A DNA stretch of 54,474 bases from an uncultured Ectothiorhodospiraceae bacterium. GTDB taxonomy: Bacteria; Pseudomonadota; Gammaproteobacteria; CAMYNG01. Below, piece after piece: positions 37,770-40,080 of this stretch. The stretch is taken from contig CAMYNG010000017.1 in the NCBI GenBank assembly GCA_947259765.1, forward strand, positions 1-54,474, written 5' to 3'. Both the position numbers and the translations under genes were made by a program. Under the pieces are notes generated by a model. That model did not search any database. It was not told where the DNA came from and saw only the letters and a list, made by a program, of their open reading frames with translations. How positions within the stretch are numbered: the first letter of the stretch is position 1; the number at the start of each line of letters is the position of its first letter.

Positions 37770-40080
37770 ATGAGTGATTCGGGTAAATACGACTCTTCCA
37801 ATATCAAGGTCCTAAAAGGTCTGGACGCGGTCCGCAAGAGACCCGGAATGTATATCGGAGACACCGACGACGGCACCGGTTTACATCATATGGTTTTTGA
37901 AGTTGTCGATAATTCCATCGATGAAGCCCTGGCGGGACACTGCAGCCGCATTGATGTCATCATCCATAGCGATGGCTCGGTCTCTGTACGGGATAATGGT
38001 CGTGGAATTCCGACCGATATCCATCCGGAAGAGGGCCGTTCCGCCGCCGAAGTGATAATGACCGTTTTGCATGCGGGCGGAAAGTTTGACGACAACTCTT
38101 ACAAGGTCTCCGGAGGGTTGCACGGAGTGGGTGTTTCTGTTGTCAACGCCTTGTCAGAGCACCTCAAGCTAACTATCAACCGCGATGGCAAGGTATTCCA
38201 ACAGGAATTTGCCTTGGGTGTACCCCAGAGTGATCTGAAGGTAATTGGTGAGGCCGAGCACACCGGTACGGAAATTCGCTTCAAGCCAAGCGTTGAAATT
38301 TTCTCCGACACCCAATTTCATTACGATATCCTAGCCAAACGTTTACGAGAATTGTCCTTCCTCAATTCCGGGGTACGCATCACCCTGACCGATGAGAGTG
38401 GAGACAAGCAGGATGCCTTCGAATACAAAGGCGGGATCCGCGCGTTTGTCGAGCATTTGAGCAGAAAGAAAAATCCGCTACATGAGTCAGTGTTCTATTT
38501 TCAAAGCGAACGCGACGACGTTAGCGTAGAAGTTGCGATGCAATGGAATGATTCCTACCAGGAAAGCATTTTTTGTTTTACCAACAACATTCCGCAACGC
38601 GATGGCGGCACCCATCTGGCCGGTTTTCGTGGTGCCTTGACTCGTACACTCAATAGCTACATCGAACAGGCGGGTCTTGCCAAAAAAGCCAAAGTATCAC
38701 CTACCGGCGACGATGCACGCGAAGGCCTGACAGCAGTTTTGTCGGTCAAGGTTCCGGACCCAAAATTTTCCTCGCAGACGAAGGACAAGCTGGTGTCCTC
38801 CGAGGTGAAAAGCGTAGTCGAGTCCGTGATGGGCGAAAAACTGTTGGAGTACTTGATGGAAAAACCGGCCGACGCCAAGAATATTGCCGGCAAGGTGGTC
38901 GACGCAGCTCGGGCACGTGAAGCTGCCCGTAAAGCGCGCGAGATGACGCGCCGTAAAGGCGCGCTTGATGTGGCGGGGTTACCGGGTAAGTTGGCCGATT
39001 GTCAGGAAAAGGACCCGGCACTGTCAGAATTATTCCTGGTGGAGGGCGACTCGGCGGGTGGTTCGGCAAAGCAGGGCCGCGACCGCAAGTTTCAGGCAGT
39101 GCTCCCGCTAAAGGGTAAAATTTTGAATGTTGAAAAGGCCCGCTTCGACAAAATGCTGTCTTCAGCGGAAGTGGGAACTTTGATTACCGCGCTCGGCTGT
39201 GGGATCGGCCGCGAAGATGCACGAACTGGTTGAACGCGGCCATATCTTCATTGCCCAACCGCCGCTGTACAAGGTAAAAAAGGGTAAGCAGGAGCGCTAC
39301 GTAAAGGATGATGCGGAGCTCAATGCCTATCTGCTGCAGGTCGCCCTGGAGAATACCCGGTTGTTTGTTACTGCCGGCGCGCCTGCCCTTACTGGTCCCG
39401 GGCTTGAGGACCTGGCCCAACAATACACGGCGGTGATGGGCAGCATTCAACGGCTATCGCGCCGTTATCCCCTCGACGTGCTGAAGAAGATCATCACCAT
39501 GCCGGGGCTGGATGATGCCATGTTGCTCGATATTTCGGTCATGCAGAACTGGTTCGCCGAACTGGAACAACGGTTGAACAACGATGAGCAGATTTCGTCG
39601 CAGTATGAAATCGAGGTCAAGCCGCGTACCGAAGAGGCCAAGTGGAGCGCCGGTATCATTGTGAGTCGCCACGGCATCAGCAGCGATTACAGTCTAAATC
39701 CTGAATTTTTCGAGTCCGGTGAATACAACTCAATGCGTAGCCTGGGCGAGAAAATTGGTGACCTGATTGGCGAGGGAGCTTACGTGCAGCGCGGTGATCG
39801 CAAACTCGACGTTGCTAGTTTTGCGCAGGTCATGAGCTGGCTGATGGAAGAAGCGGCCCGGGGCCAAAACATACAGCGTTACAAAGGATTGGGGGAAATG
39901 AATCCCGAGCAATTGAGCGAGACCACGCTGGAGCCGGAAACGCGAAGGCTACTCCAGGTTCAAATCGAAGATGCCATTGCTGCCGATGAAATTTTCACCA
40001 CGCTGATGGGTGATCAAGTCGAGCCCCGGCGTGACTTTATTGAGCAAAACGCCTTGCTGGCGGCAAACCTCGACGTGTGA
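37770..40080 (+). pseudogene. gyrB: DNA gyrase subunit B, broken by an internal deletion with frameshift
   Basis: GyrB is the ATPase and TOPRIM subunit of DNA gyrase. The first part (ATG 37770, with AGGGTGG upstream) has the GHKL ATPase ([32 protein letters not shown]), the transducer, and the TOPRIM Glu425 in VEGDSAGG. The frame then runs [10 protein letters not shown] and hits TGA at 39231-39233. The rest of GyrB continues in the +1 frame from ATG 39217 ([20 protein letters not shown]) to 40080, including [14 protein letters not shown]. Against E. coli GyrB about 35 residues are missing between GR(E/D) and MxE, holding the DxDxD metal-binding motif. With them the protein would be about 805 aa, the normal length. 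As read it cannot make a working gyrase. Confidence 0.9.
39210..39222 (+). other. Deletion/frameshift junction in gyrB
   Basis: The break falls in CGCGAAGATGCAC: GAA followed by G is the last base consistent with the upstream frame and ATGCAC is the first of the downstream frame (near 39216/39217). If the missing part has E. coli length, 107 bases are gone (35 codons plus 2 bases). Confidence 0.8.

Follow-up and report, generated by a model that had tools for sequence, protein, structure and literature searches.

The gyrB gene on contig 17 of a draft gammaproteobacterial genome lacks 107 bases from the middle of its TOPRIM domain and changes frame at the same point. This gap is most likely an error in the joining of the assembly, a reading to which we would give a probability of about 80%, and the organism itself can be expected to have an ordinary, undamaged gyrB. 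As far as can be judged from sequence, the living cell should have a gyrase that works in the ordinary way. The case illustrates how, in a draft genome, a housekeeping gene can be broken at precisely the stretch that species have most in common, and where such breaks lie on peaks of words shared across species, they should be regarded as join errors unless reads contradict this.

The gyrB gene and its junction

The draft assembly consists of 50 contigs that total 2.38 Mb, with a completeness of 72.59% and a contamination of 0.28%, and the window, meaning the whole stretch of DNA that was analysed, is the entire length of contig 17 (54,474 bases). Within the window gyrB is found on the forward strand as two open reading frames of 490 and 293 amino acids, not as a single frame of around 800 residues. 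The upstream part (37761..39215, forward strand) contains the GHKL ATPase and transducer domains (PF02518 and PF00204) and the first part of the TOPRIM domain (PF01751, positions 1-38 of 96), in which the catalytic glutamate motif EGDSA (residue 424 in E. coli) is retained, and it matches the GyrB family NF011501 from position 4 to 486 of 803. This frame reads as normal GyrB as far as GCGIGRE, with the last agreeing codon ending at 39215 and a stop at 39231-39233. The downstream part (39217..40080, forward strand) is in another frame, starts again at MHELVERG and holds the hook, the GyrB insert domain and the C-terminal part (PF21249, PF18053 and PF00986), matching NF011501 from position 521 to 803 of 803. 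The closest named matches of the downstream part are uncultured gammaproteobacteria, with the metagenome-assembled genome HyVt-448 the best in a search that may omit the window's own genome, and no match was found among plasmid records.

At the junction (39214..39219, forward strand) the contig passes from GyrB residue 481 to residue 518 in E. coli numbering, leaving residues 482-517, which include D498, D500 and D502, without a counterpart. The DxDxD metal site of TOPRIM is absent from gyrB in the contig as assembled; in E. coli gyrase the triad of E424, D498 and D500 is described as binding the catalytic metal (PMC11626157). Every GyrB domain is recognised by Pfam and NCBIfam except for the middle of TOPRIM. 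The gene is thus like the long form of GyrB (NF011501, 803 positions) in that all domains outside the gap match, the PF18053 insert included, but differs from it in the loss of residues 482-517 with the three aspartates and in the frame being broken there. The preliminary description of this DNA had claimed a gyrB without the DxDxD segment that is frameshifted at the same point, with a normal frame upstream and a resumed frame downstream, and the comparison bears out all of this; the loss it had put at about 35 residues, or about 107 bases, proves to be exact.

The size of the loss is apparent when the gene is compared with its relatives. A total of 117 loci were examined, both gyrB parts being found in 109, of which three are the window itself, leaving 106 relatives. 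The eight loci without both parts comprise five other Toprim or parE places in the window's own genome and three relatives (L058, L072 and L083), which were dropped as the upstream gyrB part is missing within reach. The flanking codons are separated by 108 bases in 105 of the 106 relative loci (102 of the 103 distinct sequences) and by a single base in the window, so that the window gyrB is shorter by exactly 107 bases than the gene in those 102 distinct relatives. The sole exception is L109, from the chromosome of Enterobacter sp. EA-1, where the gyrB frame appears to be disturbed just before the metal site. DADVDG is found in 104 of the 106 related loci, with L109 and L069 as the exceptions; in L069, the Olavius algarvensis Gamma 3 endosymbiont, the motif of the metal site reads DADADG instead. 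At the protein level the best 120 of 7999 scored proteins were considered, and with the window's own protein and a partial protein of 678 amino acids removed, DADVDG is found in all 118 listed homologues, each longer than 700 amino acids. Judged by length, the window's own protein alone among these best 120 is cut at the junction point. A loss of 107 bases against these relatives can be regarded as far beyond chance.

The two sides of the junction

Both flanks of the gap are under normal constraint, and the gene is not decayed. Of 299 near-invariant columns in the upstream part 3 are broken, against a median of 1 and a maximum of 7 in the 118 homologues, of which 24 have at least 3 broken; in the downstream part none of 79 is broken (median 0 and maximum 19 in the same homologues). 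A decayed pseudogene was considered and rejected given so few broken columns and the absence of additional breaks in the two pieces. The earlier statement that the rest of GyrB is undamaged on both sides therefore holds.

Among the matches listed, one protein, P0002, is the nearest to both gyrB halves, at 90% for the upstream half and 75% for the downstream half, for which the next best listed protein reaches 68% and the best listed genome locus 69%. P0002, the best other listed match, is 90.5% identical to the window's own protein, so that the junction is compared here between species.

The surroundings of gyrB are also those that its relatives have. To the left, dnaA, dnaN and recF (33826..37742, forward strand, named from their families) are native neighbours, their order preceding gyrB in 58 of 62 long related loci. 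To the right, plsC, gmhB, a MazG-like open reading frame, glyS and glyQ (40188..45270, reverse strand, named from their families) are native neighbours too, with plsC-gmhB-glyS following gyrB in L038 and in 14 of the 62 long loci, a count that takes in loci with or without glyQ in reach; in 32 of the 62 none of the right-hand genes lies within reach, and the remaining 16 are arranged differently. L038 has dnaA-dnaN-recF-gyrB and then plsC-gmhB-glyS on the opposite strand. On the basis of the same nearest listed relative and the native gene order, the two sides of gyrB can be taken to belong together. A chimera of two species joined at the conserved stretch was rejected on these same grounds and on the tetranucleotide correlation across the junction, which is 0.922 compared with 0.904-0.967 at eight other split points. 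The GC3 is 0.585 in the upstream and 0.652 in the downstream part of gyrB, which was not taken as evidence of a chimera.

Origin of the gap

The position of the gap is marked by the amount of DNA that the missing stretch shares between species. Shared 31-base words were counted by their start position in 98 of the 102 distinct related genes, these being the complete ones, over 9396 ordered pairs of less than 85% identity. Of 4556 such words 1874 (41%) start in the missing 107 bases and 381 in the next of the 23 bins of 107 bases, an excess of 4.9-fold, the bins having been aligned to the missing segment, a choice that works somewhat in its favour. When words were counted in register over the missing stretch and the 600 bases before the gap, the missing stretch was found to hold 908 of 1380 31-mers and 4539 of 9061 21-mers. 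At 0.96 the missing stretch has a high protein identity, but this gives it only rank 94 of 769 windows, therefore it is DNA sharing, not protein conservation, that singles this stretch out.

Contigs from mixed communities are probably prone to break at words shared between species, where the assembly graph would tangle. It may be that the contig broke at the gyrB stretch common to co-sampled species, or at thin coverage, and that a scaffolder or gap closer then joined the two ends on little or no overlap, a join that would have dropped 107 bases and shifted the gyrB frame. When the same 107-base deletion is placed on the relatives' sequences, the overlap is 0 bases in 2, 1 base in 46, 2 bases in 41 and 3 bases in 16 of 105, and judged on the window itself it is at most around 4 bases, which would be far below the word length of an assembler. 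A de Bruijn assembler could not by itself merge ends on so short an overlap, therefore a scaffolder, a gap closer or a chimeric molecule must be assumed, and the collapse at short AGA/GATG matches that the preliminary description had offered as an example makes a poor mechanism. Collapse of words repeated within the contig was also rejected, as the 15- and 21-base words across the junction each occur once.

Elsewhere in this draft there is indeed a conserved site with a join of the wrong length, although such sites are rare. On contig 30 (locus L140) the typA gene, which was found through a search for translation GTPases and identified from its sequence and size, is split by 56 Ns that lie within its conserved GTPase region. 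The site of this N run holds 12 bases in all 7 of the relatives compared, the other three of the 10 loci being partial or paralogous matches. It is probably a scaffold gap rather than a mask, because its length differs from the true one. Around 420 kb of the draft was inspected, taken from 20 sampled stretches, from the stretch around typA and from seven small loci, which overlap in part, and two N runs were seen, the second being of 7 Ns in contig 4.

An assembly error is favoured because the draft is in 50 contigs and 72.59% complete, the loss is of exactly 107 bases, it falls on the peak of shared 31-mers and typA shows a misjoin; it is favoured further because the flanks are constrained, have the same nearest listed relative and stand in native order, and because the 24 other family-matched open reading frames of the window are unsplit. 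There are, however, points that count against a join error. There are no Ns at the junction, nor in the window as a whole, a de Bruijn assembler on its own could not use so short an overlap, the missing part is not the top stretch in protein identity, the upstream part is slightly above the median in broken near-invariant columns, and with just two N runs in the DNA inspected, bad joins are uncommon in the draft. A large study describes many bacterial pseudogenes as assembly errors (Cooley and Wright 2024, PMC11017572). The gyrB of the window is like the artefactual pseudogenes in draft genomes described there in that an essential gene has lost its frame in a draft assembly and is otherwise free of decay; it differs in that the study is described as dealing with frameshifts and internal stops in general, whereas here 107 bases are lost at a stretch shared between species, in a case known from the assembly alone. 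A literature search on metagenome scaffolding errors gave no paper on point by title.

The artefact could also predate assembly, if a chimeric molecule from library preparation or whole-genome amplification carried the deletion and the assembler preferred the chimera. Chimeric reads from amplification have been described (PMC6515389), and the little overlap at the junction and the low completeness would fit, but nothing indicates that this genome was amplified, and the location of the gap on the most shared stretch would be left unexplained; such an origin is decidedly unlikely. A real deletion, either in part of the population or very recent in the sequenced lineage, is unlikely as well. One would expect cells with the deletion to be dead or dying and other cells to have intact copies, and whilst the small overlap possible at the junction and the undamaged remainder of gyrB are consistent with a very recent event, a lethal variant should not become the consensus of a population, and published work describes DNA gyrase as an essential enzyme that is ubiquitous in bacteria (PMC9348778).

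Very unlikely is a fixed loss of gyrase, by which a gammaproteobacterium would maintain its chromosome with topoisomerases IV and I. In addition to the broken gyrB, no gyrA was found in the draft, and ParE (629 amino acids, with EGDSA and DADSDG) and ParC (757 amino acids) are intact on contig 8, all of which could be read in favour of such a loss. Topoisomerase IV (ParE/ParC) usually stands beside gyrase in bacteria, therefore a second type II enzyme does not explain the gyrB gap. Thus, of the options in the preliminary description, which were an assembly error, a population variant or another type II topoisomerase in the cell, the assembly error is the one favoured, and the other enzyme is present without accounting for the gap. 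The absence of gyrA carries little weight because the block around it is absent too, as expected from a draft that is 72.6% complete. When the draft was searched with the 14.6 kb DNA of the gyrA block of the relative G003 (mtnA, gyrA, serC, serA, pheA, hisC, tyrA, aroA, cmk and rpsA, with names read from the open reading frames), nothing was found but a cross-match to parC, and a protein search of the draft for serC, run without a positive control, gave no match. Furthermore, gyrA is over the cut-off in 4 of 5 other genomes of the same family, the fifth, G004, being an incomplete genome (85%) without it, and neither gyrB half is decayed. The preliminary description had also proposed looking through the genome for a second gyrB or for parE, and it is the latter that was found. 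Searches of the own genome with PF00986, with Toprim at E up to 10 and with P0002 gave no second gyrB, just the window gyrB and parE being of the gyrB/parE kind, and the three other Toprim places are presumably topA, dnaG and recR from the size of their open frames. The missing gyrB segment was not found on another contig in the same-genome searches. A literature search on gyrase-less bacteria yielded only archaeal work; a bacterium without gyrase, if true, would overturn the view of gyrase as essential in bacteria, and this contig is no good ground for doing so.

Other genes of the window and the draft

For 28 other open reading frames chosen from the window a comparison was made with NCBIfam, and 24 match a family over the cut-off, with none of the 24 in two pieces. 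The remaining four, ParA, PlsC, the open reading frame at 46452-47609 and the MazG-like open reading frame, have weak matches or none. Across the whole genome the ABC family was found at 35 places, of which 28 are over the cut-off and cover almost the entire profile, and internal stops were seen in none of the 35.

Within the window AtpB (8939-9823) is 294 amino acids long and matches a family model of 268 positions nearly end to end, and it seems to have an extra stretch of around 29 residues. The open reading frame at 46452-47609 encodes 385 amino acids, with only partial and weak matches, to the tRNA thiolation enzymes MnmA and ThiI.
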